DNA from: Frankia alni ACN14a
GTDB taxonomy: Bacteria > Actinomycetota > Actinomycetes > Frankiales > Frankiaceae
Direction of reading: 5' to 3'
Assembly: GCF_000058485.1 (NCBI RefSeq)
Contig: NC_008278.1
Location: forward strand, 5,140,962-5,204,961
Length of the DNA: 64,000 bases
Of this stretch, positions 3,391 through 35,941 are shown one piece after another. Numbering within the stretch: position 1 is the first letter of the stretch; the number at the start of each line of letters is the position of its first letter. A program made the translations under genes and the position numbers. The notes under the pieces were generated by a model. That model was not told the origin of the DNA and searched no databases. It saw nothing but the letters and a program-made list of their open reading frames with translations.

Positions 3391-4022
3391 TGGTGAAGAA
3401 CCCCGCGGCAGTCCCCGCCGACGCCGCAACCCCCTCGCGGGGCACCGATCTGCGCAGCAGGACGAGGCGGGCGTTGCAGGCGGAGATCACGGCCGTCGCC
3501 TTCGACCTGTTCGACCGGCAGGGCTTCGAAGCGACGACGATCAACCAGATCGCCGCCGAGGCAGGCCTGTCGCGCAGCAGCTTCTTCCGCTACTTCGCCA
3601 CCAAGGAGGACGTCGTCCTGCTCGGGGTGGAGGAACGCGGCCTGGTCCTGCGCGACGCGCTCGCCGGCCGCCCCGCGGACGAGACGCCGTGGCAGGCGCT
3701 GCGCCAGGCGCTCAACGCGATCATCGGCGTCAACGCCGAGAACCCCGAACGGGCCCTGCGGCTGTCCCGGATGATGGTCGACACGCCGTCGCTCCAGGGC
3801 CGCCAGCTGCAGCGGCAGAACAGCTGGCAGCGGCTGCTGGCCCCCGAGCTCGCCCGGCGCCTCGCCATCGCGCCGACGGACACGGCCGACCCGCGCCCCC
3901 GCGCGCTGGCCTCGGCCGCGCTCGGCTGCTACGACGCCGCCCTGACGGTCTGGCGCGACTCCGACGGGACGGCCGATCTCGCCGCCCTGCTCGACCGGGC
4001 GATGTCCGTCCTGACCGGCTGA
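3390..4022 (+). CDS. TetR-family transcriptional regulator (210 aa)
   Basis: The N-terminal helix-turn-helix covers about residues 25-75, with FDRQGFEATTINQIAAEAGL and the recognition end RSSFFRYFATKEDVV; the rest is a helical ligand-binding domain of usual length. I chose GTG 3390 (GTG 3393 follows directly) rather than an ATG 54 bases upstream because the -10-like TATCCT falls inside the longer version. It is divergent from the membrane protein at 1886-3199, the classical arrangement for a TetR repressor controlling an exporter and itself. The ligand is unknown. Confidence 0.85.
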   Translation: MVKNPAAVPADAATPSRGTDLRSRTRRALQAEITAVAFDLFDRQGFEATTINQIAAEAGLSRSSFFRYFATKEDVVLLGVEERGLVLRDALAGRPADETPWQALRQALNAIIGVNAENPERALRLSRMMVDTPSLQGRQLQRQNSWQRLLAPELARRLAIAPTDTADPRPRALASAALGCYDAALTVWRDSDGTADLAALLDRAMSVLTG

Positions 4023-11821: not shown

Positions 11822-11906
11822 GCCACCAGTCCTACCGCCGCGGCGACGCCGGCATCTGACCGCCGCCGCCCGACGCACCGGCGACGATCGCGGTGGGTGG
11901 TGGGCT

Positions 11907-16348: not shown

Positions 16349-16869
16349 GTCGATCCCTTCGATGACCGCCGCGCCGCACGTGAGCATCCGGCGCGCCGAG
16401 CAGAGGGTGGCAGCGCCGGATGAACGTCCGGCCAACAGGAGAGGGCCACATCGTTGTGACCACATCCTTTCTAGTCAGAAAACGGCAGTCCGACTCGCTC
16501 CGTAGCCCATCTCGGCTATGACAATGAGGCCGTTTCTAGTCACCTGACCTTTTGGTCAGTAGTTCCACCGGATTTCGCGGGCCGATGGGGGACCACGTTC
16601 GTGGGGTCCGGACCGGACACGCGCCACCGTGCGTCCGTTGGCACGTCCGATTGGCACGCAACGCAATGGCGTCGCCGCGACACCGGGTGTTCGCTGGAGC
16701 CGGTGGCGACGATCGAGCGGCGGCTCAGCCCGCACGGCAGGGCGCGATCCCGCCCAGCTCCCCTGCCCGGCCGGGCAGCCGCGCCGCGGCTCTCGCCGTC
16801 GCCGCGCGGGCAGACCCGTGGACGTCCTCCCGCACCTGCATCCATCCGATCGACGAGAGGGAAGAGCCG
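16349..16869. promoter_or_regulatory. Divergent promoter region before the CoA-transferase gene
   Basis: About 520 bases without a convincing gene. The stretch 16465-16565 is AT-richer and contains TTTCTAGTCA twice (near 16469 and 16533) and a palindrome at 16544-16559, so it probably holds the promoters of the divergent units. Confidence 0.4.
16544..16559. promoter_or_regulatory. Palindromic operator candidate
   Basis: CTGACC (16544-16549) and GGTCAG (16554-16559) flank TTTT, a TGACC-N4-GGTCA type dyad in the upstream region of the double CoA-transferase gene. A TetR- or GntR-type site is plausible. Confidence 0.5.
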
Positions 16870-19338: not shown

Positions 19339-19426
19339 CCGGGACCGGTCCGCAGCCGTCCGTCTCCGCCGGCGGCCGTCGACCCAGGCAGAGTGACCAG
19401 TACGTTCGGCACGATCAGGAGATGTG

Positions 19427-21811: not shown

Positions 21812-22660
21812 TCAGCCGTTGGTGTAGGTCGGCGGGCGCTTCTCGCGAAACGCCGAGATCTGCTCGGTGTGGTCGCGGGTGAAGGCGGTCATGATCTGGG
21901 TGCGGTTCTCCAGGTCGATGCCCGCCTGCAGGCTGCCGACCTCGAGCTGGCTCCAGGCCACCTCCTTGGTCATCCACACGCCCATCGGGCTGTTCGCCGT
22001 GATCTGCGCGGCGATCTCCAGGGCGGCGTCGAGCGTCTCGCCGTCGGGGACGACCCGGCTGACCAGGCCGAGCCGCTCCGCCTCGGCGGCGTCGACGAGC
22101 CGGCCGGTGAGCAGCAGCTCGTGCGACCGCCCGGCGCCGATCAGCCGGGGCAGCAGCCAGCTCACCCCGATGTCGCAGCCGGACAGGCCGATGCGGACGA
22201 ACGCGGCGTTGAACCGGGCGGAGGTGGCGGCGACCCGGATGTCGGCGGCCAGCGCCAGGCCGAATCCGCCGCCCGCCGCCGGCCCGTTCACCGCGGCGAT
22301 CACCGGCTGTGCGAGGTTGCGCAGCCGGGGGACGAGGGCCGCGATCGCCTGTTGGGTGTGCAGGCGGGCCTGCGGGGAGGCATCGGCCTCGCCCGCCCGC
22401 TTGCCCGGCATGCTGAACAGGTCCAGCCCGGCGCAGAATCCGCGACCGGCGCCGGTCAGCACCACGACCCGGCACGCCTCGTCGGCGGTCACCTCGTCGA
22501 GGGCGTGGTGCAGGTCGCGGATCATTTCCGCGGACAGTGCGTTGAGCCGCTCCGGCCGGTTCATCGTCAGCACGCGCACGCCCGGCGCGGGCTGCGTCAC
22601 CAGCACCGTGCGGCCCTCGGCCGCAGTGTCCCGCAGATACAGATCGCCGTTGAGGTACAC
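21812..22660 (-). CDS. Enoyl-CoA hydratase/isomerase family protein (282 aa)
   Basis: Crotonase fold with the oxyanion-hole segments FCAGLDLFSMPG and NGPAAGGGFGLALAADIRV. The two catalytic glutamates of enoyl-CoA hydratase are not present: Gly replaces the first in GGGFGLAL, and SARFNAAFVRIGL lacks the second. It may therefore be an isomerase, thioester hydrolase or C-C lyase of the superfamily. GTG 22660 follows GGGCGGG; the preceding frame is repeat-derived. It is the last gene of the minus-strand catabolic run and ends only six bases from the oppositely oriented fusion gene. Confidence 0.8.
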   Translation of the reverse strand: MYLNGDLYLRDTAAEGRTVLVTQPAPGVRVLTMNRPERLNALSAEMIRDLHHALDEVTADEACRVVVLTGAGRGFCAGLDLFSMPGKRAGEADASPQARLHTQQAIAALVPRLRNLAQPVIAAVNGPAAGGGFGLALAADIRVAATSARFNAAFVRIGLSGCDIGVSWLLPRLIGAGRSHELLLTGRLVDAAEAERLGLVSRVVPDGETLDAALEIAAQITANSPMGVWMTKEVAWSQLEVGSLQAGIDLENRTQIMTAFTRDHTEQISAFREKRPPTYTNG

Positions 22661-22676
22661 GGGCCCGCCCTTCGCT

Positions 22677-22727
22677 CGGATCGGCCGTCTCGGACAGGCC
22701 GTCTCGGATCGGCCCTCTCGGATCGCC
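22677..22727. repeat. 14-bp tandem repeat between two operon genes
   Basis: The unit CGGATCGGCCGTCT occurs about 3.6 times with single-base changes, just upstream of the hydratase start. Confidence 0.8.
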
Positions 22728-22778
22728 GGCGCTGGCGTCGCGCCTTCGGGGGCCGTGGGCGACGCCGGCCCGGTCGGG

Positions 22779-23618
22779 TCAGCTCGTCGTCGGGGGCATC
22801 GGCCTCGGCCGGCTGGTATCACGGTGGACCCGGAAGAGCGCCTCCTGGCTCAGGCTCGCGCCGAGGATGCCGTCGGCGGTGTGGATCGTGCCGGAGTACA
22901 GCCCGCGTCCCCCCGCCGCCGAGTGCGGGACCAGGTCGAGCAGCACCCAGTCGTCCATCCGGATCGGCCGGTGGAACCAGACGGCGTGGTCGAGGCTCGC
23001 GCCCGAGAGGGCCGCGCCGCCGGGAAACGCCGCGAGGCCGGTGAAGGTGTCCGACAGGTAGGTCAGGACGCAGGCGTGCAGCAGCCGGTCGTCGGGCAGC
23101 GCGACGGTGCTGCGCGCCCACACGCGGGTGGGCCACCCGGAGTTCTCGTAGGGCTGTTTCGGCAGCCGGCCCTCGATCGAGAACAGCCGACCGAAGCGCA
23201 GCTGGTCGGCCGTGTCCGGGTCGCCGGCGTCGGGCATCGGGTCGACCTGGTGGTCGGCGCCGTCCTCCGGGACCTGGAACGACACCGACATGTTGAAGAT
23301 GACCTTGCCGCCCTGGACGGCGACGACCCGGCGGGCGGAGAACGACCGGCCGTCCCGGTCCCGCTCCACCCGGAAGATCGTCGGCCGGGAGGCGTCCCCG
23401 CTGCGCAGGTAGTAGCCGTGTAACGAGTGCGGGACGCGCCCGGTGGGCACCGTGCGTCCGGCGGCGAGCAACGCCTGGGCGGCGACCTGCCCGCCGTAGA
23501 GGGAGTACCGGTCCTCGAACACCGTCAGGGCCCGGTAGAGGTCCTGGTCCAGCTCCTCCAGCTCCAGCAGATCGAGAATCGAGGCCCCCGGCTCGGCCGG
23601 CGGCGGCACGCTGCTCAC
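22779..23618 (-). CDS. tesB: Acyl-CoA thioesterase II, TesB family (279 aa)
   Basis: Double hot-dog thioesterase releasing free acid and CoA from acyl-CoA. The first hot-dog has YGGQVAAQALLAA, HSLHGYYLRSGD and FSARRVVAVQGGKVIFNMSVSFQ; the second has SLDHAVWFHRPIRMDDWVLLD and GRGLYSGTIHT. Length is typical. GTG 23618 follows AAGGGGGC; an ATG two bases upstream is immediately stopped. It is 15 bases behind the racemase gene. In this operon it may recycle CoA from intermediates that cannot be degraded further. Confidence 0.92.
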   Translation of the reverse strand: MSSVPPPAEPGASILDLLELEELDQDLYRALTVFEDRYSLYGGQVAAQALLAAGRTVPTGRVPHSLHGYYLRSGDASRPTIFRVERDRDGRSFSARRVVAVQGGKVIFNMSVSFQVPEDGADHQVDPMPDAGDPDTADQLRFGRLFSIEGRLPKQPYENSGWPTRVWARSTVALPDDRLLHACVLTYLSDTFTGLAAFPGGAALSGASLDHAVWFHRPIRMDDWVLLDLVPHSAAGGRGLYSGTIHTADGILGASLSQEALFRVHRDTSRPRPMPPTTS

Positions 23619-23633
23619 ATTCGCCCCCTTGCG

Positions 23634-24761
23634 TCAGCTGGCGGTGGTCAGGCCCCAGGCCTGTCTCACCTGGGCGAGGGTGGAGCTGCCCACGGCCGGT
23701 CCCATCTCGGCGACCCGCCCCGGGGTGCGCGAGAAGCGCGGCGCCGGGGCCGGAGCCACCTCGTCGCCCAGGTCGACGAACACCTCCCGGGCGGCCAGAT
23801 GCGGGTGCGCGCGCGCCTCCGACCAGCTCAGCACCGGCGCCGCACAAGCGTCGGTGCCGTTGAACACCTGCTCCCACTCCGCCCGGGTGCGGCTGGCGAA
23901 CACGGTGGCGAACGCCGCGCGCATCTGCGGCCAGCGGCTGGCGTCGTTCTGGGCGTCCGCCCACTCCGGCAGGCCCAGCAGCTCGACGAGCCTGGCGTAG
24001 AACTGCGCCTCGATGGCGCCGACGGAGAACCAGCCGCCGTCGGCGGTCTCGTAGACGTCGTACCAGGGTCGGCCGGTGTCCAGCATGTTCGTGCCCCGCG
24101 GCTCGCCCCACTCCTTGCGGGAGATCATCGACCACATCATCGCCGACAGCGACGCCACCCCGTCGACGATGGCGCAGTCGACGACCTGCCCCCGGCCGGA
24201 GCCGCGGGCCTCGTGCAGCGCGGCGAGGATGCCGACGACGAGGTACAGCGCGCCGCCGCCGAAGTCGCCGACCAGGTTCAGCGGCACCTGCGGCGGCCCG
24301 CCCGCCCGGCCGATCGCGCCCAGCGCCCCGGTGATCGCGACGTAGTTGATGTCGTGGCCGGCGGAGCGCGACCAGGGACCCTCCTGGCCCCACCCGGTCA
24401 TCCGGCCGTAGACCAGTGCGGGGTTGCGGGCGAGCAGCGCGTCGGGCCCGAGGCCGAGCCGCTCGGTGACCCCCGGCCGGTAGCCCTCGATGAACACGTG
24501 GGCGGCGTCGATCAGGTCCAGCAGACCGGCGTGCTCGTCGGGGTTCTTCAGGTCGAGCGCGACGGACGGTCGACCACGGGTCAGCCAGTCGGGCTGCGTG
24601 CCCACGGTGGCCGGCTTGTCCACCCGGATGACGTCCGCGCCGAGCTCGGTGAGCAGCGTGGCCGCGAACGGCGCCGGCCCGATGCCGGCCAACTCGATGA
24701 CCCGCACGCCGTGCAACGGGCCGTACGCGGCCGCGGGAGAGGGGGTCGAGGGGTCGGGCAT
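23634..24761 (-). CDS. Alpha-methylacyl-CoA racemase (375 aa)
   Basis: Converts 2R-methylacyl-CoA to the 2S form, the form used by acyl-CoA dehydrogenases. It belongs to the CaiB/BaiF superfamily but shows the racemase residues: GHDINYVAITGAL (His126 equivalent of the mycobacterial enzyme), NLVGDFGGGALYLVVGILAAL (Asp156 equivalent) and VGAIEAQFY (Glu241 equivalent). ATG 24761 lies five bases after AGGAG; ATG 24764 is a close alternative. Its place next to an acyl-CoA dehydrogenase suggests that branched-chain, steroid-side-chain or isoprenoid acids enter this pathway. Confidence 0.88.
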   Translation of the reverse strand: MPDPSTPSPAAAYGPLHGVRVIELAGIGPAPFAATLLTELGADVIRVDKPATVGTQPDWLTRGRPSVALDLKNPDEHAGLLDLIDAAHVFIEGYRPGVTERLGLGPDALLARNPALVYGRMTGWGQEGPWSRSAGHDINYVAITGALGAIGRAGGPPQVPLNLVGDFGGGALYLVVGILAALHEARGSGRGQVVDCAIVDGVASLSAMMWSMISRKEWGEPRGTNMLDTGRPWYDVYETADGGWFSVGAIEAQFYARLVELLGLPEWADAQNDASRWPQMRAAFATVFASRTRAEWEQVFNGTDACAAPVLSWSEARAHPHLAAREVFVDLGDEVAPAPAPRFSRTPGRVAEMGPAVGSSTLAQVRQAWGLTTAS

Positions 24762-24769
24762 CATCGCTC

Positions 24770-24835
24770 CTTCGGGGTGGATCACGGCTTCCGGGCGGGT
24801 CAGTACTTCCGGGTGGATCGCGGCTTCGGGGTAAA
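24770..24835. repeat. Imperfect direct repeat upstream of the racemase start
   Basis: Two imperfect copies of a unit of about 33 bases, sharing GGGTGGATC and CGGCTTC, lie in the 122-base gap between the dehydrogenase stop and the racemase ATG. Confidence 0.6.
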
Positions 24836-24883
24836 ACAGGTCCCTGGCTCGGATCATGCCGTTCCCGGCCGCGTGGTGCCTGG

Positions 24884-26113
24884 TCAGCCGGGGGTGGGGA
24901 TGCCGGAGGCCGCCGGCGCCGGGACGGCCGGGGTGGTGGTCCGCGCCCGCAGCAGGCGCCGGGCGACGGCGTGCTTGTGCACCTCGGTCGGGCCGTCGTA
25001 GAGGCGGAACGCCCGAATGTCCCGGAAGATCATCTCGACGACGGTCTCGTCGGTCACCCCGATGCCGCCGAGGACCTGCACGCAGCGGTCGGCGACGCGG
25101 AACAGCTCCTCGGACACGTAGCACTTGACCTTCGACGCCTCGTGCCTGCCCTGTTCCCCCCGGTCGAGCAGCCAGCAGGCGTGCCAGATCGCCAGCCGGC
25201 AGTTGTCCAGTGCGATCTCGTTGTCGGCGAGCTGGAAGCCGACGCCCTGGTGCTCCCCGATCGGGCGACCGAACGCCGTGCGGGTGCGGGCGTGCTCGAC
25301 GGCGATGCTGTGCGCCCGGTCGGCCGCGCCCAGCCAGCGCATGCAGTGGGTCAGCCGGGCCGGGGTGAGCCGCAGCTGGGCGTAGCGGAAGGCGTCGCCG
25401 GGCGTGCCGAGCACCGCCGAGGCGGGCAGGCGCAGGTCGCGGAAGGTCACCACGCCGTGACCCTCGACGTAGTTGCGGTCCATGGTGTTCATGACCCGCT
25501 CCACCTCGATGCCGGGTGTGTCGCCCCGGGTGAGGAACAGCGTCGGGCCGCCCAGCCCGTCGGCGCCGGGGGCCAGCCGGGCCATGATGATCCAGGTCAG
25601 CGCGCCGTTCGCCCCGGTGATCAGCCACTTGCGCCCGTTGACCACGAAGTCGTCGCCGTCGCGGACGGCCTCGGTGAGCAGCTGGTTCGGGTCGGAGCCG
25701 GCGCCGCCCGGCTCGGTCATCGCGAACACCGAGCGCGCCCCGCCCTCAATGACCGGCCGCAGGAACTCCTCCTGCTGCTCCGGGTCGGCGATCTTCGCCA
25801 GCAGCCCCATGTTCGCCTCGTCCGGCGCGGCGCAGTTCATCGCCACCGGCCCGAGCGTCGACCAGCCGGCCGCCTCGTAGACCACCGCCTGCTCGATGTG
25901 GGTGAGCTCCCGGCCGCCGAACCTCCTCGGCGCCTGGATGGTCAGCAGGCCGGCCTTACGCGCCAGGCCGACGAGGTCCTGGCGCAGCTCGTCGGTGGGG
26001 CCGTGCGCGGTCAGCCGCGGGTCGCGCTCGAACGGGACGATCTCGTTCTCGACGAACGACCGCACCCGCTCCCGAAGATCCACCAGCTCCTGCGGAAGAC
26101 TGAAATCGATCAT
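24884..26113 (-). CDS. Acyl-CoA dehydrogenase, ACAD10/11 (LvaC)-like (409 aa)
   Basis: FAD-dependent acyl-CoA dehydrogenase of usual length. Motifs: FAMTEPGGAGSDP for flavin and substrate, KWLITGANGA, RTAFGRPIGEHQGVGFQLAD, QVLGGIGVTDE and RLYDGPTEVHKHAVAR. The last has Asp before Gly, as in ACAD10/11 proteins, where medium-chain enzymes have Glu. It sits 30 bases behind a phosphotransferase gene, reproducing as two genes the kinase-dehydrogenase fusion of vertebrate ACAD10/11 and the LvaA/LvaC pair of Pseudomonas putida. Those pairs turn 4-hydroxyacyl-CoA into 3-hydroxyacyl-CoA through a 4-phospho intermediate; the same role here is inferred. Confidence 0.87.
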   Translation of the reverse strand: MIDFSLPQELVDLRERVRSFVENEIVPFERDPRLTAHGPTDELRQDLVGLARKAGLLTIQAPRRFGGRELTHIEQAVVYEAAGWSTLGPVAMNCAAPDEANMGLLAKIADPEQQEEFLRPVIEGGARSVFAMTEPGGAGSDPNQLLTEAVRDGDDFVVNGRKWLITGANGALTWIIMARLAPGADGLGGPTLFLTRGDTPGIEVERVMNTMDRNYVEGHGVVTFRDLRLPASAVLGTPGDAFRYAQLRLTPARLTHCMRWLGAADRAHSIAVEHARTRTAFGRPIGEHQGVGFQLADNEIALDNCRLAIWHACWLLDRGEQGRHEASKVKCYVSEELFRVADRCVQVLGGIGVTDETVVEMIFRDIRAFRLYDGPTEVHKHAVARRLLRARTTTPAVPAPAASGIPTPG

Positions 26114-26143
26114 GATTTTCCCTGCAGTCTCGTCGGAATGCGG

Positions 26144-27229
26144 TCAGGGGCGGGCGGCGGTGAGGTCCGCCGTCCAGCCGAGCACGGCGTCGGCGATCCG
26201 CGCGAACCCGGCGTAGCGGGGGCCGGCCACCGGATCGCCGGCGAAGCGCCGGTACAGCTGCATCCAGGCGATCGCCAGCCGTAACCGGGCCAGCGCCAGA
26301 TGGAAGCCCAGCTCGGCCGGCGGGCGGCCCGCCGCGGCGAAGTAGCCCGCGGCGACCTGCTCGCGCCGCGGGAAGCCGGGTTCGAGCGAGGGCACCTGGC
26401 GCAGCTCGTGCAGCGCCGGCGGGTCGTCCGGCTCGATCCAGTAGGACAGCAGCACCGCCAGGTCGAACAGGGGGTCGCCGCGGGTCGTCATGTCCCAGTC
26501 GAGGACGGCGACCGGGGCGAGGGTCCCCGGGGCGACGAGCATGTTGTCGAACTTGAGGTCGCCGTGGATCAGGCGCGCCTCGCCCGCCGGCACGTCGACG
26601 ACGGCGGCGCGCAGCCAGCCGATCACCGCCCTGGCGGCGGCCGGCGGCCCGTCGGGGTACACCGCGGCGGCCCGGCGAGCCCAGCCCTCCACCTGCCGGC
26701 CGAGGAACCCCTCGGGCCGGCCGAGATCCCCGAGCCCGACCGACGCCGGGTCCAGGGCGTGCAGGGCTGCCATCGCCGCCAGCAGGGTCGCGGTCAGCCG
26801 CCCGGGAACCGAGTCGGCACCGGCGGGCTCGGCCGCGGCGAGCGCGGGCGGCACGGTGGCGCCGACGGTGACGCCGTCGCGGTACTCCAGCACCTGGAAC
26901 TGGGCGCCGAGAACGTCGGTGTCGGTGCAGAAGTGCACCCCGCGCGGGGCGAGCGGGTAGCCCGCGCCGAGCTGGCGCAGCACCCGCCACTCGCGCGCCA
27001 TGTCGTTGGCGCCCTCCGCCGACGGCCCGGGCGGCGGGCGGCGCAGCACGGCGGGGCTGCCGTTCACGGACACCAGATAGTTGAGGTTCGCCAGGCCACC
27101 GGCGAACTGGCGGGGAGCGACGTCGGTGTCCAGGTGCAGCCCGTGACGGGCCAGCTCGGCGGCGACCCGGTCCCAGGGCTGGGCGATCGTCGTCTCGGGC
27201 GGTCGGAACCGCGGGTCGACGCCGGTCAC
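26144..27229 (-). CDS. APH-family phosphotransferase, LvaA/ACAD10-type kinase (361 aa)
   Basis: Aminoglycoside-phosphotransferase fold. The N-lobe has FAGGLANLNYLVSV and AVLRRPPPGP; the C-lobe has LIHGDLKFDNMLV with the catalytic Asp and VLDWDMTTRGDPLFDLA with the metal-binding Asp. The order and wording match the kinase half of ACAD10/11 rather than antibiotic kinases. GTG or ATG ambiguity is absent: ATG 27229 overlaps the hydratase stop (27226) in an ATGA. The acyl-CoA dehydrogenase follows 30 bases later. Predicted to phosphorylate the 4-hydroxyl of an acyl-CoA. Confidence 0.87.
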   Translation of the reverse strand: MTGVDPRFRPPETTIAQPWDRVAAELARHGLHLDTDVAPRQFAGGLANLNYLVSVNGSPAVLRRPPPGPSAEGANDMAREWRVLRQLGAGYPLAPRGVHFCTDTDVLGAQFQVLEYRDGVTVGATVPPALAAAEPAGADSVPGRLTATLLAAMAALHALDPASVGLGDLGRPEGFLGRQVEGWARRAAAVYPDGPPAAARAVIGWLRAAVVDVPAGEARLIHGDLKFDNMLVAPGTLAPVAVLDWDMTTRGDPLFDLAVLLSYWIEPDDPPALHELRQVPSLEPGFPRREQVAAGYFAAAGRPPAELGFHLALARLRLAIAWMQLYRRFAGDPVAGPRYAGFARIADAVLGWTADLTAARP

Positions 27230-28089
27230 CCCGCGTCCCCCGAGCCGGAGGCGGCGGGCGCGGCGGGCGCGGCGGGCGCGGCGGTGAGCTGGCCTCGGTT
27301 CCCGGCGACGATGCCCGCGCGGCGGCCGGCGACGCCGCCGGCGTCGAAGCCGCGTTCCAGCCAGGCGGCGGCGGCGCGCGACTCGGCGGCCAGCGCGTCG
27401 GCGGTGCCCTGCGCCGCGATCGCCCGCGCGGAGGCGAGGAACGCCACCCGCGTCGCCGGGTCCGACGCGCGGATGCGCTGGGCGAGGCGGTGGGCGGCGG
27501 GCAGCAGGTCGTCGTGCGGGACGACCTCGCTGACCAGACCCGCGTCCCGGGCGGCCACCGGGTCGAGGAACTCACCGGACAGGCTCATCCGCAGCGCCCG
27601 GCGCTCGCCGACCGCCCGCGGAAGCAGGACACTCATTCCCCAGCTCGGCAGGACGCCGACCCGGGTGTGGGTGTCGGCGAACGCCGCCCGCTGCGAGGCG
27701 ATGAGGATGTCGCAGTGCAGCGCCAGCTCGAAGCCGCCGGTGATCGCCGGACCGTTGATCGCGCCGATCAGCGGCTTGCCGGTCGGCTCCCAGGGCAGAC
27801 CGGGCGGCGGGCCGGCGTCGCCCGGACGGGTCTGGGCCAGGCGCAGGTTCTCGCCGCTGCCGGCCACCTCGCCGAGGTCGAGGCCGGCGCAGAACGCCGG
27901 GTCGGCGCCGGTGAGGACGACGACGTCGACGGCGTCGTCGGCGTCCGCCGCGGCGAGCGCCGCCCGCAGGGTCCGGATCAGCCGGGCGGTCAGGGCGTTG
28001 CGTGCCTTCGGCCGGTGCAGGGTGAGGACGGCGACCCCGTCCACCCGCTCGACCAGGAGTTCACCGGTGCCGGGATCGGCGTCGACCAT
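27226..28089 (-). CDS. Enoyl-CoA hydratase/isomerase family protein (287 aa)
   Basis: Crotonase family: FCAGLDLGEVAG, NGPAITGGFELALHCDILIA and FADTHTRVGVLPSWGMSVLLP. The first catalytic Glu is kept (GGFEL) but the second is replaced by His (ADTHTRVG), as in many actinobacterial EchA proteins whose reaction is not settled. The Ala/Pro tail (AAPAAPAAPA) comes from a short GC-rich repeat. It overlaps the phosphotransferase gene by four bases and is third-to-last upstream in the operon order, after the dienoyl-CoA isomerase gene. Confidence 0.85.
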   Translation of the reverse strand: MVDADPGTGELLVERVDGVAVLTLHRPKARNALTARLIRTLRAALAAADADDAVDVVVLTGADPAFCAGLDLGEVAGSGENLRLAQTRPGDAGPPPGLPWEPTGKPLIGAINGPAITGGFELALHCDILIASQRAAFADTHTRVGVLPSWGMSVLLPRAVGERRALRMSLSGEFLDPVAARDAGLVSEVVPHDDLLPAAHRLAQRIRASDPATRVAFLASARAIAAQGTADALAAESRAAAAWLERGFDAGGVAGRRAGIVAGNRGQLTAAPAAPAAPAASGSGDAG

Positions 28090-28130
28090 GACGGCTCCTC
28101 GTTCGGAAGGGTTCGGCTGTCGGGCGGCGG

Positions 28131-28192
28131 GCGCCGGTCAGAGCGGTGGGCGCCGGTCGTCAGAGCGGTGGGGCGCCGGTCAGAGCGGTGGG
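28131..28192. repeat. 19-bp repeat spanning a stop codon
   Basis: GCGCCGGTCAGAGCGGTGG occurs at 28131-28149, at about 28150-28171 with two extra bases, and at about 28173-28192. The last copy contains the stop (28180-28182) of the dienoyl-CoA isomerase gene. Confidence 0.85.
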
Positions 28193-29010
28193 ACCGCCGG
28201 CAGGTCCGGGTAGTCGGGGGCGTGCCCGCCCGCGCGCCCGCGCATCGCCTCGGCGACCTCCTCGGCCTGGAAGGCTCCCGTCTGCCAGGTCGCGATCTGG
28301 TCGAGCCCGGCGGCGACGTCGTGGTCGCGGGCGTAGAGCAGGCTCTCCTTGCTGCCCCAGACCGCCAGCGGGCTGCGCGCGGCGATCTCGGCGGCGATCT
28401 CGCGGACCCCCGCGAGCAGCGCGTCGTGGTCGTCGAACACCTCGTTGACGAGGCCGAGCTCGCGGGCCCGCGCGGCCGGCAGGCGCCGTCCGGTGTAGGC
28501 CAGCTCCCGGGCCACCCCGGCCGGGATGAGCGTCGGCAGGCGCTGCAGGGTGCCCAGGTCCGCGGTGATCCCGATGTTGGTCTCCTGGACGACGAAGAAG
28601 GCGTCGGCGGTGGCGTACCGCAGGTCGCAGGCGGTGATCAGATCGAGGCCGCCGCCGAGGCAGCCGCCCTGCACGGCCGCGAGCACCGGCATCCGGGCCC
28701 GCTCCAGCGCGGTGAAGGCGTCCTGCATGCGGGCGATGAGCCGCTTGCGGCCGGCGTTGGCACGCGCCGGGTCGCCGCCGGACAGCAGGTCGCTGTGCTC
28801 GAACGCGGACAGGTCCATCCCGGCGCAGAAGTGTCGGCCGGTCGAGGAGATGATCAGCGCCCGCACGTCACCGGCGTCGCTGAGCCGGCCGACGGCGTCG
28901 GGAAACTCCCGCCAGAACTCCGGCAGCAGCGTGTTGAGCGCGGCCGGCCGGTTGAGCACCAGCTGCGCGACCCGGCCGATGACGTCGACCTCGAAGCAGC
29001 GGTGGCCCAC
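28180..29010 (-). CDS. Delta3,5-delta2,4-dienoyl-CoA isomerase-like protein (276 aa)
   Basis: Crotonase family with the acidic residues of the ECH1 isomerase. GGGLDLITACDLRYA gives the first Asp, FFVVQETNIGI the Glu, and TADLGTLQRLP the second Asp; rat ECH1 uses Asp176, Glu196 and Asp204 in nearly identical contexts. Predicted to shift 3,5-dienoyl-CoA to 2,4-dienoyl-CoA during breakdown of unsaturated chains with odd-numbered double bonds. GTG 29010 is preceded by GAGGAG at six bases; longer readings start in low-complexity sequence. It is the first gene of the operon running down to 21812 and has an operator-like element 86 bases upstream. Confidence 0.87.
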   Translation of the reverse strand: MGHRCFEVDVIGRVAQLVLNRPAALNTLLPEFWREFPDAVGRLSDAGDVRALIISSTGRHFCAGMDLSAFEHSDLLSGGDPARANAGRKRLIARMQDAFTALERARMPVLAAVQGGCLGGGLDLITACDLRYATADAFFVVQETNIGITADLGTLQRLPTLIPAGVARELAYTGRRLPAARARELGLVNEVFDDHDALLAGVREIAAEIAARSPLAVWGSKESLLYARDHDVAAGLDQIATWQTGAFQAEEVAEAMRGRAGGHAPDYPDLPAVPPL

Positions 29011-29334
29011 GGCGGACTCCTCATCTGTGCGGCACAGCTCTTCGGCGCTCCGACGACGGCCTGCCCTCGGGTCCCCGAACCCTGATCTCGATAAGAGTAA
29101 ACTAAGTATACTAACTTCGCGAGCAACACCGAGGGCCGCACGGCCCCATCGACCGTGGTGGCCGGCCCGAACGGGGCCACGGTCGACCGACTCCGGGGGC
29201 GCGGCGCGCGGGCACCACGACCGCCTGCCGTGAGGTGGCCGACGCCGGCGGCCGCGTCCCCGGGCCACCCGCCCCCGCGGCGCAGAGGTGCCGTGGGGGC
29301 GGATGGGGTCGAGGCCCGGTGGGGCCCCGGCGGG
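29011..29334. other. Intergenic region upstream of the minus-strand catabolic operon
   Basis: 324 bases between the isomerase start and the SDR stop. Apart from the AT-rich motif at 29096-29113 and the promoter it implies, nothing recognisable is present. Confidence 0.5.
29096..29113 (-). promoter_or_regulatory. AGT-N2-ACT operator-like site, copy a
   Basis: Plus-strand AGTAAACTAAGTATACTA: two AGTNNACT half-sites separated by one base, a near-palindrome of 17 bases. It sits in an AT-rich island 86 bases upstream of the GTG of the seven-gene catabolic operon, where a promoter is expected. The same layout recurs at 31293, 34956 and, more weakly, 31485 and 35061. Confidence 0.65.
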
Positions 29335-30201
29335 TCAGGACAGGACGTAGCCGCCGTCGACGACGATCTGCTCGCCGGTCTGGTACCGGGACGCCGCCGA
29401 GGCCAGGTAGACGGCGATGCCGCCCAGGTCCGCGGGGGTGCCCCAGCGCCGGCCCAGCAGCCGCGGCAGCGAGCGGGCGGCGAACTTCTCGTCGTCGAGC
29501 AGGTCGTCGGCCAGCGCGGTGCGGATGTAGCCGGGCAGGATCGCGTTGACCCGGATGCCGTCGCGGCTCAGCTCCACCGCGCAGCTGCGGACCAGGCCGG
29601 ACAGCGCCGCCTTCGCGGTGCCGTACGCCTGGGTCCGGGCGAAGCCACGGTTGGTCCCGATGATGCTCGACACCGCGACGAGGCTGCCTCCCGCGCCGGC
29701 GGCGACCATGTGCCGGGCCGCGGTGCGGAAGGTGAGGAACACCCCGTCCAGGTTGATCCGCAGCACCTGGTGCCACTGGTCGAGAGTCAGGTCGGTGAAG
29801 CGCATCGGCTCCCCGCCGATGCCGGCGTTCGCGAAGCAGGAGTCGATCCGCCCGAACACACCGACCGCCTGCTCGAACGCGTCGATGACCTGCGCCTCGT
29901 TCCCGACGTCGCAGCGCAGCGCGAGCACCTTGCCGCCGTGCGCGGCGAGGGTCTGCTCCGCGGCGGCGTTCTTACGCTCGTTCGTGCCGAGGATGACGAC
30001 GTCCGCCCCGGCGGCGGCCAGCGCCTCGGCGATGCCCAGGCCGATCCCGCCGTTGCCCCCGGTGACGAGCGAGACCTGGCCCCGCAGGTCGAACGAGGCG
30101 ACGTCCGCCGGCTCGGGGCTCGGGCCCGCCGCCGCGGGACGGTCCGTCGGAACGGGACCGGCGGTCGCGGTGGGACGAGCGGTCGCGGTGGGACGGGTCA
30201 T
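29335..30201 (-). CDS. Short-chain dehydrogenase/reductase (288 aa)
   Basis: Classical SDR of the glucose/3-oxoacyl reductase type. After a disordered Thr/Ala/Pro tail of about 35 residues comes VSLVTGGNGGIGLGIAEAL for the cofactor, CFANAGIGG, SSIIGTNRGF and the YGTAKAAL catalytic Tyr-Lys. The C-terminus GEQIVVDGGYVLS is typical. ATG 30201 overlaps the stop of the upstream F420 oxidoreductase by four bases. Probably oxidises or reduces a hydroxyacyl or steroid-like intermediate. Confidence 0.88.
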   Translation of the reverse strand: MTRPTATARPTATAGPVPTDRPAAAGPSPEPADVASFDLRGQVSLVTGGNGGIGLGIAEALAAAGADVVILGTNERKNAAAEQTLAAHGGKVLALRCDVGNEAQVIDAFEQAVGVFGRIDSCFANAGIGGEPMRFTDLTLDQWHQVLRINLDGVFLTFRTAARHMVAAGAGGSLVAVSSIIGTNRGFARTQAYGTAKAALSGLVRSCAVELSRDGIRVNAILPGYIRTALADDLLDDEKFAARSLPRLLGRRWGTPADLGGIAVYLASAASRYQTGEQIVVDGGYVLS

Positions 30202-31205
30202 CGCGTCGCGTCGAGCAGCAGGGGCCACACCGCCGGGTCGGCCTTCCAGGTGTCGTAGAAGGCCGTCCGGGTGTAGATGCCGCTGATCTTCGCGATGAGG
30301 CCCTTGCCGACCTCCTCCGGCGTCCCGACGACCGAGAACGTGTGCAGGATTTCGTCGCTGATGAGGTCGGCCATGCCGTCCCACTCGCCGCGCTTGGACA
30401 GGTTGGTGAGCTCCGGCTGCAGGTCGCCCCAGCCGTGCACGTCGAGGACGGCCTTGTAGGCCGGGGTGGAGGCGTAGAAGGCGATCTGCTTCTTGGTCCC
30501 GAAGACCGCCGCCGCCAACTCCTCCTCGGTGCGCCCGACCGTCACGAACGACGGCCCGGCGATCGCGAAGCCGTCCAGATCGGCCCTGCCGGCCTTCGCC
30601 CGCCCGCGCAGCAGCGCCGGGAGGGTGACCTCCTCGAGGTACTTCTTCGTGCTGAACGGGTGGACGAAGAAGCCGTCGGCCACCTCGCCGGCCACCTCGG
30701 TCATCCCCTCGCCGACGCCGGCGAGGTACACCGGCGGTGGGCCGTAGGAGTGCGGCGACGGCGCGAAGAACGGCGTCATGAGGGTGTGGGTGTAGAAGTC
30801 GCCGCGGAAGGCGAGCTTGGTGCCGTTCTGCCAGGAGTCCCAGATCGCCCGGGTGGCCAGGACCAGCTCGCGCATCCGGGCGGCCGGGTGCGACCAGGTC
30901 ATCGAGAACCGCTTCTCGATGTGCGGCTTGATCTGCGAGCCCAGGCCCAGGATGAACCGGCCCTCGCTGTACTGGGCCAGGTCGTAGCCGAGGTAGGCCA
31001 GCGTCATCGGGGTCCGCGCGAAGGCGATCGCGATCGACGTGCCGACGCTCGCGGTCGAGGTCGCGTTGGTCGCCTGCAGCGTCTGCAGGAACGGGTCGTG
31101 GCGGGTCTCCCCCACCCAGATGCCCGCGTAGCCCTCCTTCTCGATACGCGCCGCGCCCGCCGGCGTCGCCGCGAGGTCGTCCGACAGGTTTGCGTCGATC
31201 TTCAT
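30198..31205 (-). CDS. F420-dependent LLM-class oxidoreductase, MSMEG_2256-like (335 aa)
   Basis: Luciferase-like TIM-barrel protein. GYAGIWVGETRHDPFL, IAFARTPMTLAYLGYDLA, GRFILGLGSQIKPHIEKRF and VYLAGVGEGMTEVAGEVADG match the actinobacterial F420 group typified by MSMEG_2256 (TIGR03617), common next to acyl-CoA and steroid degradation genes. Probable hydride transfer between F420 and a carbonyl or enoyl substrate. ATG 31205; an operator-like site lies 88 bases upstream. It is translationally coupled to the SDR that follows. Confidence 0.85.
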   Translation of the reverse strand: MKIDANLSDDLAATPAGAARIEKEGYAGIWVGETRHDPFLQTLQATNATSTASVGTSIAIAFARTPMTLAYLGYDLAQYSEGRFILGLGSQIKPHIEKRFSMTWSHPAARMRELVLATRAIWDSWQNGTKLAFRGDFYTHTLMTPFFAPSPHSYGPPPVYLAGVGEGMTEVAGEVADGFFVHPFSTKKYLEEVTLPALLRGRAKAGRADLDGFAIAGPSFVTVGRTEEELAAAVFGTKKQIAFYASTPAYKAVLDVHGWGDLQPELTNLSKRGEWDGMADLISDEILHTFSVVGTPEEVGKGLIAKISGIYTRTAFYDTWKADPAVWPLLLDATR

Positions 31206-31292
31206 CCGCTCTCCTCCTGATGGCGGGGCCTGTCGACGACCGCCGCGCCCGTCTCATCATGCCGCCAGGGGCCGCCAGATGACCTGCCGACG

Positions 31293-31310
31293 TAGTTCAC
31301 CAAGTGCTCT
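31293..31310 (-). promoter_or_regulatory. AGT-N2-ACT operator-like site, copy e
   Basis: Minus-strand AGAGCACTTGGTGAACTA, identical at 15 of 18 positions to the site at 34956-34973. It lies 88 bases upstream of the F420 oxidoreductase start, almost the same spacing as copy a from its gene. Confidence 0.6.
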
Positions 31311-31484
31311 TTGACGACGCCGATCCGCCGTGCGACGCGCGCACCCACGGCCAACCACGCCGATCGATACCGACAGCACCCGGACGATTCCAGGCGGTGC
31401 CTCCAACCGGGAGCCGCGCGGCGCCACCGGTGGACCGGCCACAGCCGCCACACCCGGAGAACTCACACCCCTACCCCGCCGACA

Positions 31485-31502
31485 TAGTTTACTAGGTATT
31501 CG
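31485..31502 (+). promoter_or_regulatory. AGT-N2-ACT operator-like site, copy b (orphan)
   Basis: TAGTTTACTAGGTATTCG: the first half-site is perfect, the second degenerate; 12 of 18 positions match copy a. No gene starts within 280 bases. Confidence 0.4.
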
Positions 31503-31650
31503 ATGACGGCTGCCACCGCCTGGAGGCGGGTCGTCATCCCCGCCCGACGGCACGACTCCACCGAACGTCATGATCGCCAGAGTTGGAGCTCGGGCCGGGG
31601 CAGTCCGCACGCCCCCCTGGTCGGAGGTGGATACGCCCTCCGGCCAGGAC

Positions 31651-31696
31651 GGACCACCCGACCGGGGCAGGCCGGACCACCCGACCGGGGCAGGCC
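31651..31696. repeat. 23-bp tandem duplication
   Basis: Two identical adjacent copies begin GGACCACCCGACCGGGG and end CAGGCC (31651-31673 and 31674-31696), with decayed copies after them. Non-coding as far as can be seen. Confidence 0.85.
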
Positions 31697-32205
31697 ATAC
31701 CGCTCAGCCAGGGCAGGCCGGGCCGCCTCCCGGCGGGGGGCCGGCTGGCCCTCCGCGACGCCCGCGACCACACCGCTTTACCTGATTCGCGGGTAGGACG
31801 AAGGTGCCGTCGCGGGCGACCTTCGACACGCGCGGTGTCCATCTGGTTCTGTGTCGGCACGGCCGCGCGCCGCCCGCCGAACGCCGGCGCGCCGTCCGCG
31901 GATGGCGACATAACCGCCTGAGCAGGGTATATGCCAGGCTTGAAGAGCGGCCCTCGGTGAATCGACCGGCGAAGCGCGCCGATGCTAGCTCGCACCTGGA
32001 TTACCGCGGGTAGCTGCCCCCGGTCGGACTTTCGCCCCTATTACTGGCCGGCCCGCCACAAATGTAGGATGTTCATGTCGATCAGTCATCGACACTCGGG
32101 CCGGGGTGATTACCGGCCGCAATCCCCTCCGCAAAGTGGCCGCGAGACGTCTGCGCGGCCGCAGATCCCATGATTCCGCGTTTCCGACAATCGGAGGACG
32201 ACGGC

Positions 32206-32880
32206 GTGACCGACAACGCCGCGGCAGCTCAGCCGCTGCACGTGCAGGGTCGAGATGCGGTGATCGCCGCATCACAGGGCGTGACCTGGCGTGACGGAGA
32301 GCCCCCGGATTACCACCTGTCCCACCAGACCATGCCGGCGGAACGCTCCGTGCACCACGAGCCCGGTTCACTCGCCGACATCGTGGAGCGGGTCGTCCAG
32401 GTCTTCGAGATGGAGCTGTCCCACAAGAAGAACCCGTCCGAGTGGGTCAGCATGGTCGCCGACAAGGTCAGGGTCAGCGTCAACGGCGGACCCGGGGTGG
32501 GCAGCGCCGAGCTGGCCGAGCGGGGCAGCTACAACGTCCTGATCGGGGAGAACCCGTACTACTCGGCCACCGAGGAATCCTTCGAGTCGTCGCACGACGT
32601 GTTCCACGAGGCATTCCCCGGGGGCTTCTTCTGGGAGGTCCTGGAGGTCTACTCGCCGCCGCCCGTGATCACTTTCAAGTGGCGGCACTGGGGCACCTTC
32701 AGCGGTCCCTACAAGGGAGTCGAGCCCACCGGCGAGCGCATCGAGATGTACGGCGTGACGGTCGCCCACGTGACCGACGACCTGCGCCTCACCGATACCC
32801 AGCACTTCTACGACAACACTGAATTCCTGGGCCGGCTCGCCCGCGGTCAGCTCGCACCCAACCCGCACGCCCACCAGTAG
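32206..32880 (+). CDS. SnoaL-like polyketide-cyclase-fold protein (224 aa)
   Basis: The C-terminal part (FHEAFPGGFFWEVLEVYSPP, ITFKWRHWGTFSGPYKGVEPTGERIEMYGVTVAHV) has the pattern of NTF2/SnoaL proteins, including the conserved GPYKGVEPTG stretch. Such proteins act as small hydrolases, isomerases or aldol cyclases. The N-terminal 75 residues are charged and helical and are not typical of the family. GTG 32206 is chosen for GGAGGAC at 32193; ATG 32170 in frame is possible. It stands alone, ended by a strong hairpin. Confidence 0.78.
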   Translation: MTDNAAAAQPLHVQGRDAVIAASQGVTWRDGEPPDYHLSHQTMPAERSVHHEPGSLADIVERVVQVFEMELSHKKNPSEWVSMVADKVRVSVNGGPGVGSAELAERGSYNVLIGENPYYSATEESFESSHDVFHEAFPGGFFWEVLEVYSPPPVITFKWRHWGTFSGPYKGVEPTGERIEMYGVTVAHVTDDLRLTDTQHFYDNTEFLGRLARGQLAPNPHAHQ

Positions 32881-32887
32881 GAACCGC

Positions 32888-32917
32888 ACCGCGGCGCCCG
32901 GCCGGGGGCGCCGCGGT
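32888..32917. terminator. 12-bp perfect stem terminator candidate
   Basis: ACCGCGGCGCCC (32888-32899) pairs exactly with 32906-32917 around GGCCGG, eight bases after the SnoaL-like stop and before the convergent hydratase gene. No U-tract. Confidence 0.75.
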
Positions 32918-32952
32918 CCACCCTCGACGGTCCACGCTCAGACGGTCCGCCC

Positions 32953-33801
32953 TCAAGCGGGCGGGCGGGCGGTACCGGCAGGCCTGGCGGTGTCGATCAC
33001 GGCGGTGAACCGGTCCTGGGCCTCCTGCGGATCGACCCGCCAGTGCCGGGCCGTGCCCGCCTCGCGGGCCAGCGCGTCGGCCAGCGACCTGCCCTCGCCC
33101 TCGGCGTACAGCTCCCAGGCGGCGGCCAGCGCGCGCCGGCTCGTCCGCGCGGTTGCCGCCGCGAGCTCCACCGCCCGCGTCACCACCGCCTTGTGCGCCA
33201 CCACCTCGGTAACCAGGCCGATGCGCAGCGCCGTGGCGGCGTCGATCTGCTCGCCGGTCGCGGTGAGCCGGCGCGCCCAGCGCGTTCCGACCGCCCGCGG
33301 CAGCAGGGCGCTGAGCCCCCAGCCGGGCACCAGGCCGACCCGGGCATGCGTGTCGGCGAAACGGGCCCGCTCGGAGGCCACCGCGAACGAGCAGCTCAGC
33401 AGCACCTCCAAGCCGCCGGTAACGCACGTGCCGTTCACCGCGGCGACCACCGGCTTCGTCATCGCCCGCAGGGTCGCCGCCGGGTTGAGCGAACGCACCC
33501 CGCGCGGCTTCGGGCCGGGGCCGAGCGCCTCGGTCAGGTCGACCCCCCCGGTGAACGCGGGATCGGTGCCGGTCAGCACCACCGCGACCACCGCGTCGTC
33601 CCCCTCGGCCTCGGTCAGTGCCGCCATCAACGCCTGCCGGGTCGCGACGTTCAGCGCGTTGCGCACGGCCGGGCGGTGCAGCGTCAGCAGCAGCACCGGA
33701 CCACGCCGCTCCACCAGCAGCGGCCCGGACCGGTCCACCAGCAAAGGCTCGGGCCGGTCCACCAGCGGCGGCTCGGGCCGGTCCGCGGCCGGGCCACTCA
33801 C
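32953..33801 (-). CDS. Enoyl-CoA hydratase/isomerase family protein (282 aa)
   Basis: Crotonase fold with FTGGVDLTEAL, NGTCVTGGLEVLLSCSFAVA and FADTHARVGLVPGWGLSALLP. It keeps the first catalytic Glu and has His at the second, so it is a close paralogue of the 27226-28089 protein. The first 30 residues are a repeat of DRPEPLLV-like units produced by a 24-bp DNA repeat. GTG 33801 overlaps the stop of the aldo-keto reductase gene (GTGA), so the two are translationally coupled. Confidence 0.85.
   Translation of the reverse strand: MSGPAADRPEPPLVDRPEPLLVDRSGPLLVERRGPVLLLTLHRPAVRNALNVATRQALMAALTEAEGDDAVVAVVLTGTDPAFTGGVDLTEALGPGPKPRGVRSLNPAATLRAMTKPVVAAVNGTCVTGGLEVLLSCSFAVASERARFADTHARVGLVPGWGLSALLPRAVGTRWARRLTATGEQIDAATALRIGLVTEVVAHKAVVTRAVELAAATARTSRRALAAAWELYAEGEGRSLADALAREAGTARHWRVDPQEAQDRFTAVIDTARPAGTARPPA
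33724..33784. repeat. 24-bp repeat encoding the hydratase N-terminus
   Basis: Units built on CGGGCCGGTCCACCAGC follow one another about 2.5 times and give the hydratase a repeated Asp-Arg-Pro-Glu-Pro leader. Confidence 0.75.
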
Positions 33802-34724
33802 CGGCTCCCACCTACCACCGGGCCGCCGCCCCCGGCCCTGGCCTGGGCGGGGGCGGAGCTCGCGGCGCCGATCGCGGCCACCTCGTCGTCGGTGAGCGCG
33901 ACCCAGGCGGCGTCGACGTTGGCGTCGAGATGACGGACCTTCGACGTGCCGGGAATGGGCAGCAGCACCGGGGAGCGCCGCAGCAGCCAGGCGAGCGCGA
34001 CCTGCGCGGCGTCCGCCTCACGGGCGGCGGCGATGGCGTCGAGTACCGCGCCGAGGCGCTCGCCGACCAGCACCGGTGCCCACGGCAGGAAGGCGAGCCC
34101 GTCGCGCTCGCAGACGGCCAGCACCGCCTCCGCCGTCCGGTCTCCGGCGTTGTACCGGTTCTGCACGCTGACCACCTCGCCGAGCGAGCGGGCGAGCGCG
34201 AGCTGCTCGGGTGTCACGTTCGACACGCCGATGTGGCGGACCTTGCCCTCCCGCTGAAGGTCGAGGAAGGCACCGACGGTGTCCTCGTAGGGCACCTGGG
34301 GGTCGGGCACGTGCACCTGATAAAGATCGATGGCCTCGACCCGCAGCCGGCGCAGGCTCTTCTCGCACTCGGCCCGGATGTGCTCGGGGCGGCCCAGCGG
34401 CGGCAGGCTCGTCGCTCCCGGGGCGATCTTTCCCGGCCGGAAGCCCGCCTTCGTGGTGATGAGCAGGTCGTCGGGGTACGGGTACAGCGCCTCGGCGATG
34501 ATCTCCTCGGACTCGCCGTACCCGTAGATGTTCGCGGTGTCGATCAGGTTGACGCCGCGCTCGTACACCCGGCGGGTGAGCGCGACGGCCTGCGCGCGGT
34601 CGCGGACCCCCTCGGCGTTGCGGGCGCCGGAGATCCGCATGGCGCCGAAGCCGAGGCGGCGCACGGTGTGGCCGGCCAGGCGGAACGTGCCGGTCGTGGT
34701 GTCGTCGAGGGTGCGGTGGGCCAT
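33798..34724 (-). CDS. Aldo-keto reductase (308 aa)
   Basis: NADPH-dependent carbonyl reductase of the TIM-barrel AKR family. The catalytic set is visible: LIDTANIYGYGESEE (Asp, Tyr), LLITTKAGF (Lys) and IDLYQVHVPDP (His); IPGTSKVRHLDANVDA is the cofactor loop. ATG 34724 gives a normal length; a 74-residue upward extension is low complexity. It is the first gene of a two-gene unit with the hydratase, and an operator-like site lies about 230 bases upstream. Confidence 0.9.
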   Translation of the reverse strand: MAHRTLDDTTTGTFRLAGHTVRRLGFGAMRISGARNAEGVRDRAQAVALTRRVYERGVNLIDTANIYGYGESEEIIAEALYPYPDDLLITTKAGFRPGKIAPGATSLPPLGRPEHIRAECEKSLRRLRVEAIDLYQVHVPDPQVPYEDTVGAFLDLQREGKVRHIGVSNVTPEQLALARSLGEVVSVQNRYNAGDRTAEAVLAVCERDGLAFLPWAPVLVGERLGAVLDAIAAAREADAAQVALAWLLRRSPVLLPIPGTSKVRHLDANVDAAWVALTDDEVAAIGAASSAPAQARAGGGGPVVGGSR

Positions 34725-34955
34725 GTCTCGATCACGAGCCTCTCGCTGGCGGGATGGCTGCGGGTCCCGGGGCCGTTCGCCCGACAGCGGCACCAAACGG
34801 GGCGATGTGGGACCGTACGTCAGGTGGTCGACGGTTCGTTCGCCAGCCCGCGCGGCCCGTCCGGGACGGCGTGCCGGCGGGTGCCGCCGCGGCCGGGGGA
34901 CGATCCGTCGCGGCGCGCCGCGACGGATCGGCAACCAGGTGCACACCCCGCCATT

Positions 34956-34973
34956 AGAGCACTAAGTTAACTA
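34956..34973 (+). promoter_or_regulatory. AGT-N2-ACT operator-like site, copy c
   Basis: AGAGCACTAAGTTAACTA. It differs from copy a mainly in the first half-site, and from copy e at only three positions. Between the divergent aldo-keto reductase and SDR genes. Confidence 0.6.
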
Positions 34974-35060
34974 TCAGAACGCGGATTCCGGCCTGTCAAC
35001 CCGCACGACCCCGCACCGCTCCGCCCCGCCGTCCCGGGGCGACGACAGGCACGGCAATAC

Positions 35061-35078
35061 ATTTTACTGTTTACACTA
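35061..35078 (+). promoter_or_regulatory. AGT-N2-ACT operator-like site, copy d (degenerate)
   Basis: ATTTTACTGTTTACACTA keeps both ACT elements and the final A but not both AGT elements (11 of 18 against copy a). It lies about 100 bases before the SDR start in an AT-rich island that is a likely promoter. Confidence 0.35.
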
Positions 35079-35179: not shown

Positions 35180-35941
35180 GTGCAGATCGCGGATTCAGTC
35201 GCAGTGGTGACCGGCGGGGCGTCCGGCCTCGGCCTCGCCACCGCCACCCGGCTCGTCGACGCCGGCGCGAGCGTCGTCCTGCTCGATCTCCCGAGCTCCA
35301 ACGGTGCCGCGGTCGCGGAGAAGCTCGGCAGCGCCGTGCGCTTCAGCCCCGGTGACGTCACCTCGCCCGAGGACGTCACCGCCGCGTTGGACGCGGCCGC
35401 CGAGCTCGGCCCGCTGCGGATCGCCGTCAACTGCGCGGGCATCGGCAACGCCGCGAAGACGCTGGGCAAGCAGGGGCCGTTCCCGCTCGACCTCTTCGAG
35501 CGGGTGGTGCGGGTCAACCTGATCGGCTCGTTCAACGTCATCCGGCTCGCGGCGGAGCGGATCAGCCAGGTCGAGGAGATCGAGGGCGAGCGCGGCGTCA
35601 TCATCAACACCGCGTCGGTGGCGGCGTTCGAGGGTCAGATCGGCCAGGCGGCCTACTCCGCCTCCAAGGGCGGCATCGTCGGCATGACCCTGCCGATCGC
35701 CCGCGACCTGGCCAACCTGAAGATCCGCGTGGTCACGATCGCCCCCGGCCTGTTCGACACCCCGCTGCTCGCCTCCCTGCCGGAGCCGGCCCGCATCTCC
35801 CTCGGCCAGCAGGTGCCGCACCCCTCCCGGCTGGGCTCCCCCGACGAGTACGGCCTGCTCGCCACCCAGATCATCGCCAACCCGATGCTCAACGGCGAGA
35901 CGATCCGCCTCGACGGCGCGATCCGGATGGCGCCGAAGTAG
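35180..35941 (+). CDS. SDR, 3-hydroxyacyl-CoA dehydrogenase type 2-like (253 aa)
   Basis: Short-chain dehydrogenase close in form to HSD17B10, the SDR-type NAD-dependent 3-hydroxyacyl-CoA dehydrogenase. [18 protein letters not shown] binds cofactor; [21 protein letters not shown] holds Ser, Tyr and Lys; [21 protein letters not shown] and a C-terminal [12 protein letters not shown] are characteristic. GTG 35180 has GAGAGGAA upstream. It would perform the third step of beta-oxidation for the island. Confidence 0.9.

Follow-up and report, generated by a model that had tools for sequence, protein, structure and literature searches.

A palindromic motif shared by acyl-CoA gene units of Frankia alni ACN14a and its candidate GntR/FadR-type regulator

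Gene units and palindromic sites of the window

The window considered here is a stretch of 64,000 nucleotides of the Frankia alni ACN14a genome (G000:C1:5140962-5204961, on a single contig of 7,497,934 bases), and our subject is a short palindromic motif that recurs in it ahead of units of acyl-CoA catabolic genes, together with the regulator that probably binds there. The original prediction, made from the letters of this stretch, had described an 18-bp sequence shared by three sites, with two weaker copies, and had tied the genes behind them into one regulon; our analysis supports it in substance, and the regulon is larger than was then thought. The candidate operator sites and the gene units are listed below in window coordinates; the units of seven, two, two and one genes agree with those first proposed.

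29095..29113, no strand: operator site 1, GAGTAAACTAAGTATACTA, 33.1 bits; precedes the seven-gene acyl-CoA unit
31293..31311, no strand: operator site 2, 25.1 bits; 88 bases ahead of the gene for an F420-type LLM oxidoreductase
31485..31503, no strand: operator site 3 (weaker copy), 29.0 bits; second site ahead of the LLM-SDR unit
34955..34973, no strand: operator site 4, TAGAGCACTAAGTTAACTA, 31.7 bits; amid the divergent aldo/keto reductase-enoyl-CoA hydratase (ECH) and SDR units
35060..35078, no strand: operator site 5 (weaker copy), 19.7 bits; closer to the SDR gene
21812..29010, minus strand: co-directional seven-gene unit (Pfam; start of the first gene approximate)
Members of that unit, minus strand (Pfam): ECH (28180), ECH (27226), APH-like (26144), acyl-CoA dehydrogenase (24884), CoA-transferase III (23634)
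Further members, minus strand (Pfam): acyl-CoA thioesterase (22779), ECH (21812)
29335..31205, minus strand: two-gene unit of LLM oxidoreductase (TIGR03617) and SDR (Pfam and NCBIfam)
32953..34724, minus strand: two-gene unit of aldo/keto reductase and ECH (Pfam)
35180..35941, plus strand: single SDR gene (Pfam)

All five sites are instances of one motif, TAGTNNACTNAGTNNACTA, a palindrome of 19 bp that is at the same time a 9-bp direct repeat, since it holds two units AGTNNACT 9 bp apart, and this unit is itself a palindrome, as had been noted of the half-site, of the form TNGT-NN-ACNA found in the FadR subfamily. The shorter description AGNNNACTNNGTNNACTA is present without mismatch at 29096-29113 (plus strand), 31293-31310 (minus strand) and 34956-34973 (plus strand), and with two mismatches each at 31485/31486 and 35061; when the sites at 31293 and 34956 are compared, 15 of the 18 positions are identical, as originally counted. 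With up to two mismatches it matches the window 10 times, against 1.6 expected and a maximum of 6 in 100 shuffles, a count that uses a pattern derived from these very sites and scores a palindrome on both of its strands. The AT-rich islands that had been described are there as well, the G+C fraction within 20 bases either side of the sites being 0.38-0.57 against 0.73 for the window. Two nearly equal distances between site and gene had also been remarked on; the 88 bases from the site at 31293 to the LLM gene start (31205) stand, whereas the 86 bases are approximate only, because echA, near 29010, has an ambiguous start. Beside the sites there is a weak signal of a third 9-bp unit at +9 (2.06 of 6 matches for 45 Frankia sites, 2.48 for 84 others, the other outward offsets printed giving 0.8-1.9), a measure that the flanks of the matrix may bias.

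Two plus-strand genes run tail to tail towards the seven-gene unit; one encodes a protein of 928 residues that has two CoA-transferase III stretches (window 16552-19338), the other a 793-residue protein in which thiolase-like and enoyl-CoA hydratase parts are joined (window 19424-21805).

Distribution and conservation of the sites

A 23-bp matrix, trained on 32 sites from five other genomes, was used to scan 264 kb around the window along with 700 kb of background. At 16 bits, a line chosen after the scores had been seen (8 and 12 bits were fixed beforehand), it gave 13 matches representing 12 distinct sites in the 264 kb and none in the 700 kb, where the maximum was 15.3; at 12 bits there were 22 matches against 2.3 expected, and at 8 bits 37 against 7.5. 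Eight of the 12 sites are orthologous to sites of the training set, and four (5253617, 5266220, 5276905 and 5281884) have no orthologue in it, the one at 5266220 standing in the same promoter as a trained site. The strong matches are not spread at random across the genome; one further strong site, of 24.0 bits, lies outside the 264 kb, ahead of an aldehyde dehydrogenase gene at 3134087. A profile built from 25 sites of the five other genomes and run over the whole 7.5 Mb at E<=10 returned seven matches (best E-value 0.066), or six sites, all within one 96-kb stretch (5170055-5266424); because all six are orthologous to sites among the 25, the value of this search lies not in discovery but in showing no equally good match in the rest of the genome.

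The sequence TAGNNNACTNNGTNNNCTA, with at most one mismatch, occurs at 17 distinct places of the genome, 7 of them in 5.17-5.34 Mb. A loose genome-wide pattern with three mismatches is not enriched (318 matches versus 370 for the reversed control), another loose form shows no excess (20 versus 46 for its control), and the exact 19-bp pattern, which is too strict, finds a single site across 35 genomes; the information is carried by the strong sites only. A weaker site of 14.5 bits (L117:3329, G000:C1:5208290) lies between divergent genes, the second of which has an ABC-ATPase-like start.

The sites recur ahead of orthologous genes in five other genomes, though not each site in each genome. In gapped alignments, in which the 19 site positions were compared with 40-base flanks and the LLM promoter of G009, cut by a contig end, was excluded, conservation at sites 1, 3 and 4 clearly exceeds that of their flanks: 95% of positions are invariant at site 4 in six genomes (flanks 38-60%), 84% at site 1 in four genomes (orthologous site in G004, G010 and G011; flanks 32-45%) and 53% at site 3 in three genomes (site also in G004 and G011; flanks 12-35%). 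At sites 2 and 5 no clear excess over the flanks is seen in these alignments, with 74% invariant in five genomes at site 2 (same place in G003, G004, G010 and G011; flanks 50-62%) and 53% at site 5, which has a counterpart in 6/6 genomes (flanks 42-60%).

These data bear on another view of the repeats, as promoter elements or as palindromes arisen by chance in AT-rich spots, which we regard as very improbable. The sites do lie in AT-rich intergenic spots, the loose patterns are not enriched, and two of the five sites fail to stand out from their flanks; the clear conservation of sites 1, 3 and 4, the gapped alignment included, nevertheless speaks against it, as does the fact that the strong matches occur nowhere but in one island and at the aldehyde dehydrogenase gene and that they recur ahead of homologous regulators.

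The candidate regulator and its competitors

A regulator gene was found through conserved sites in other genomes (L044-L046), and it encodes a GntR-type protein whose G011 orthologue has a GntR helix-turn-helix (HTH) domain (PF00392, E 8.7e-19) and a C-terminal FCD domain (PF07729, E 5.8e-14). The F. alni orthologue lies at G000:C1:5251724-5252518 on the minus strand, 46.8 kb past the window end; the original prediction was right that the regulator is absent from the window, but the gene to which the role is best assigned does belong to the same, larger island. In G000 this gene has a site some 100-120 bases upstream (L119:7658), and 6/6 Frankia orthologues have a site ahead of the regulator's own gene, a frequent though not universal feature of the subfamily. 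Other sites around it precede genes for an enoyl-CoA hydratase, a periplasmic binding protein and an FAS1-dehydratase-type protein, stand ahead of a unit that includes acyl-CoA dehydrogenases, and lie in the gap that separates an amidohydrolase gene from its divergent neighbour. We consider it probable, on the evidence of sequence comparison, that the window sites are the operators of this one regulator of the GntR family, FadR subfamily, because the sites themselves, the way they recur in orthologous promoters and cluster locally, the site at the regulator's own gene and the motif at the homologues of other genera all point to it. The motif TNGTNNACTNAGTNNACNA has the GT/AC palindrome TNGT-N2/3-ACNA, the subfamily consensus according to PMC2230225 and PMC4494728, both in Frankia and as found de novo in homologue promoters, and the regulator would bind an operator of this type.

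A co-occurring TetR or GntR regulator had been suggested as the thing to look for. Across 13 genomes of the genus, orthologues of the GntR/FadR-type gene (96-100% to the G011 query) are present in exactly the six that have at least two sites (Fisher p 0.0006), the numbers at up to one mismatch being 2-5 in those six and 0 or 1 in the other seven, with 0-3 for the control. In G002 the SDR gene has an orthologue at 92%, the regulator has no match above 44% identity, and the SDR promoter lacks a site.

Homologues in other genera extend the association. Homologues were collected at 79 loci, 7 from Frankia and 72 from elsewhere (mostly Mycobacterium/Mycolicibacterium, with two Actinomadura, at 48-57% identity). 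At 58 of them the 350 bp ahead of the regulator contain a matrix match of at least 15 bits, namely at 53 of the 72 others and 5 of the 7 Frankia loci, whose sites are orthologous to training sites. Somewhere in the locus a match is found at 77 of the 79, with 176 matches in all versus 7.2 in local shuffles, and at the non-Frankia loci 13 of 158 matches fall inside called genes. A de novo expectation-maximisation search of 63 non-redundant non-Frankia promoters, run without the Frankia matrix, yielded TGGTTnACTnAGTnAACCA. Neither Actinomadura locus has a match within the 350 bp, but both have sites about 1.2 kb upstream of the regulator, which at L229 precede an LLM gene followed by the regulator; at L296, from Mycobacterium, the gene behind a site is again an LLM gene, and next comes a second GntR gene that also has a site. 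The LLM proteins of L229 and L296 match TIGR03617 best but fall below its cut-off, unlike the LLM protein of the window. In G027, from another genus of the family, a 47% homologue is flanked by one site per side; an upstream match of at least 15 bits is also present at 5 of 24 GntR homologues of the family that are more distant, some of them with other-looking palindromes.

Two further loci were noted alongside these. At L064/L141 (G017:C91), AGCTTAACAAGCTAACTA (18.2 bits) stands about 145 bases ahead of a 45% GntR homologue and is a possible variant of the operator; at L134 (G034:C401), a 19.1-bit site at 1498 lies between an ECH-like gene, which adjoins a GntR-like gene, and a divergent gene.

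The aldehyde dehydrogenase promoter brings in a second protein, of the TetR family (G000:C1:3134236-3134874), whose gene and the dehydrogenase gene are divergent and share an intergenic region with a conserved three-unit site. It might regulate all the sites or share them, and we judge this unlikely. The protein occurs in the same six genomes as the GntR/FadR-type regulator (84-92%), with the site in 6/6, and a 19-bp palindrome would suit a TetR protein; a 60% homologue in G034 adjoins an LLM-like gene (TIGR03617, below cut-off) with a 16.6-bit matrix match at its start. That match is moderate, however, is missed by the pattern at three mismatches and could be a GntR target too, and when 24 loci of TetR homologues from outside the six genomes were scanned, G034 alone gave a match of at least 15 bits within 350 bp upstream. 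The Frankia site lies 34-43 bases ahead of the dehydrogenase start and 129 ahead of the TetR start, and a TetR regulator leaves the motif ahead of GntR genes in other genera without an account.

A paralogous protein of the GntR/FadR type, alone or with the regulator named above, could also bind the sites, which we think highly unlikely. The genome holds 16 matches to the regulator, itself included, with similar HTH regions (the ends of some homologues being set at a default length in this comparison), and the 15 others have similar recognition helices; yet the promoters of 8 of these 15, when scanned, reach at most 9.9 bits. One paralogue promoter in G003 (L311) does score 20.2. The match there (G003:C77) stands about 88 bases ahead of the paralogous GntR gene and is a different palindrome, AAGTTCAATATGAACACTT, which may be that paralogue's own operator.

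Several results count against the assignment to the GntR/FadR-type regulator. Besides the similar HTH regions of its paralogues, the G003 and G034 promoters just described, the late choice of the 16-bit line and the orthology of most sites to the training set, these are the following: the six genomes are close relatives, so that the co-occurrence of regulator and sites may reflect shared descent; L227 (F. canadensis, 62%) and L226 (a second copy in QA3, 64%) have near-identical HTH regions and lack a site in the stretch fetched; and G001 has no site at up to one mismatch genome-wide. A mycobacterial matrix applied to G000 recovered several island sites, with a background match (22.7) above every match in the island; exact-type sites (at most one mismatch) are not above control when 11 other genomes of the family are searched; and 4 of 16 island matches lie inside genes called by a crude caller.

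The remaining regulators of the window (TetR at 3336, 5270 and 42572; LysR at 11897 and 60206; MerR at 40211) have no upstream matrix match above 9.1 bits. The first of these, a TetR protein (window 3336-4022, plus strand), carries an MftR-type C-terminal domain below the NCBIfam MftR cut-off.

Relation to known systems and proposed mechanism

Both the proposed regulon and its putative operator are new, the regulator family being already known; the original prediction had not recognised the operator, and no description of it or of such a Frankia regulator was found in the open-licence literature searched, mostly titles and the starts of abstracts. The mycobacterial cholesterol regulons of KstR and KstR2 resemble the Frankia regulon in that one regulator with its own operator governs several acyl-CoA catabolic units, and differ from it in that their regulators belong to the TetR family and have other operators. 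NanR of E. coli has sialic-acid genes as its targets. This protein (PDB 6on4) is the closest solved relative of the GntR/FadR-type regulator by sequence (E 4e-15), the similarity being weak, and it binds direct repeats TGGTATAW (PMC4494728), which differ from the Frankia motif.

The likeness to the FadR subfamily is closer: the regulator combines a GntR HTH with an FCD domain, the subfamily consensus is given as TNGTNNNACNA in PMC2230225, and TNGT-NN-ACNA agrees with a GT/AC palindrome of 2-nt spacing, which the portion of PMC4494728 at hand describes for the GntR, HpxS, HypR, MdcY, PrpR and UxuR groups. The Frankia operator is unlike these in consisting of two units of similar strength that overlap at 9 bp, and ACTNAGT is therefore its best conserved part; that same portion mentions weaker extra half-sites at 7-12 nt, not a double form (PMC4494728). 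The GntR proteins of M. smegmatis are of the same family, with operators predicted from promoters, and the full Frankia motif is none of the 19 operator sequences listed in the excerpt available (PMC2018728); the predicted operator of MSMEG_3822, TTGTTACTCAA, compared by operator sequence only, has TTACTNA in common with half of the motif (PMC2018728, same excerpt).

One dimer of the regulator may sit on each AGTNNACT palindrome (TNGT-NN-ACNA), and with the units 9 bp apart two dimers would then lie side by side; alternatively, a single dimer might hold the ACTNAGT core with outer contacts. The regulator would keep its own gene and also the acyl-CoA catabolic units repressed until a pathway intermediate, an acyl-CoA or a carboxylate, bound the FCD domain and released it; both the direction of control, repression and not activation, and the type of effector are suggested by analogy with the regulator family.

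More tentatively, this group of regulators in Frankia, Actinomadura and many Mycobacterium could govern a common and as yet undescribed catabolic pathway, with an F420-type LLM enzyme, acyl-CoA dehydrogenases, a thiolase and a CoA ligase among its enzymes, through a double operator that takes two dimers on overlapping palindromes 9 bp apart; we hold this joint proposal to be possible rather than probable. For the large catabolic island of Frankia, the analysis supplies an operator, a likely regulator and a list of genes. This operator also serves as a marker of related regulators, both in environmental mycobacteria and in Actinomadura, where it stands beside an LLM gene; the sites allow one pathway to be delimited across genera and its substrate then to be sought.

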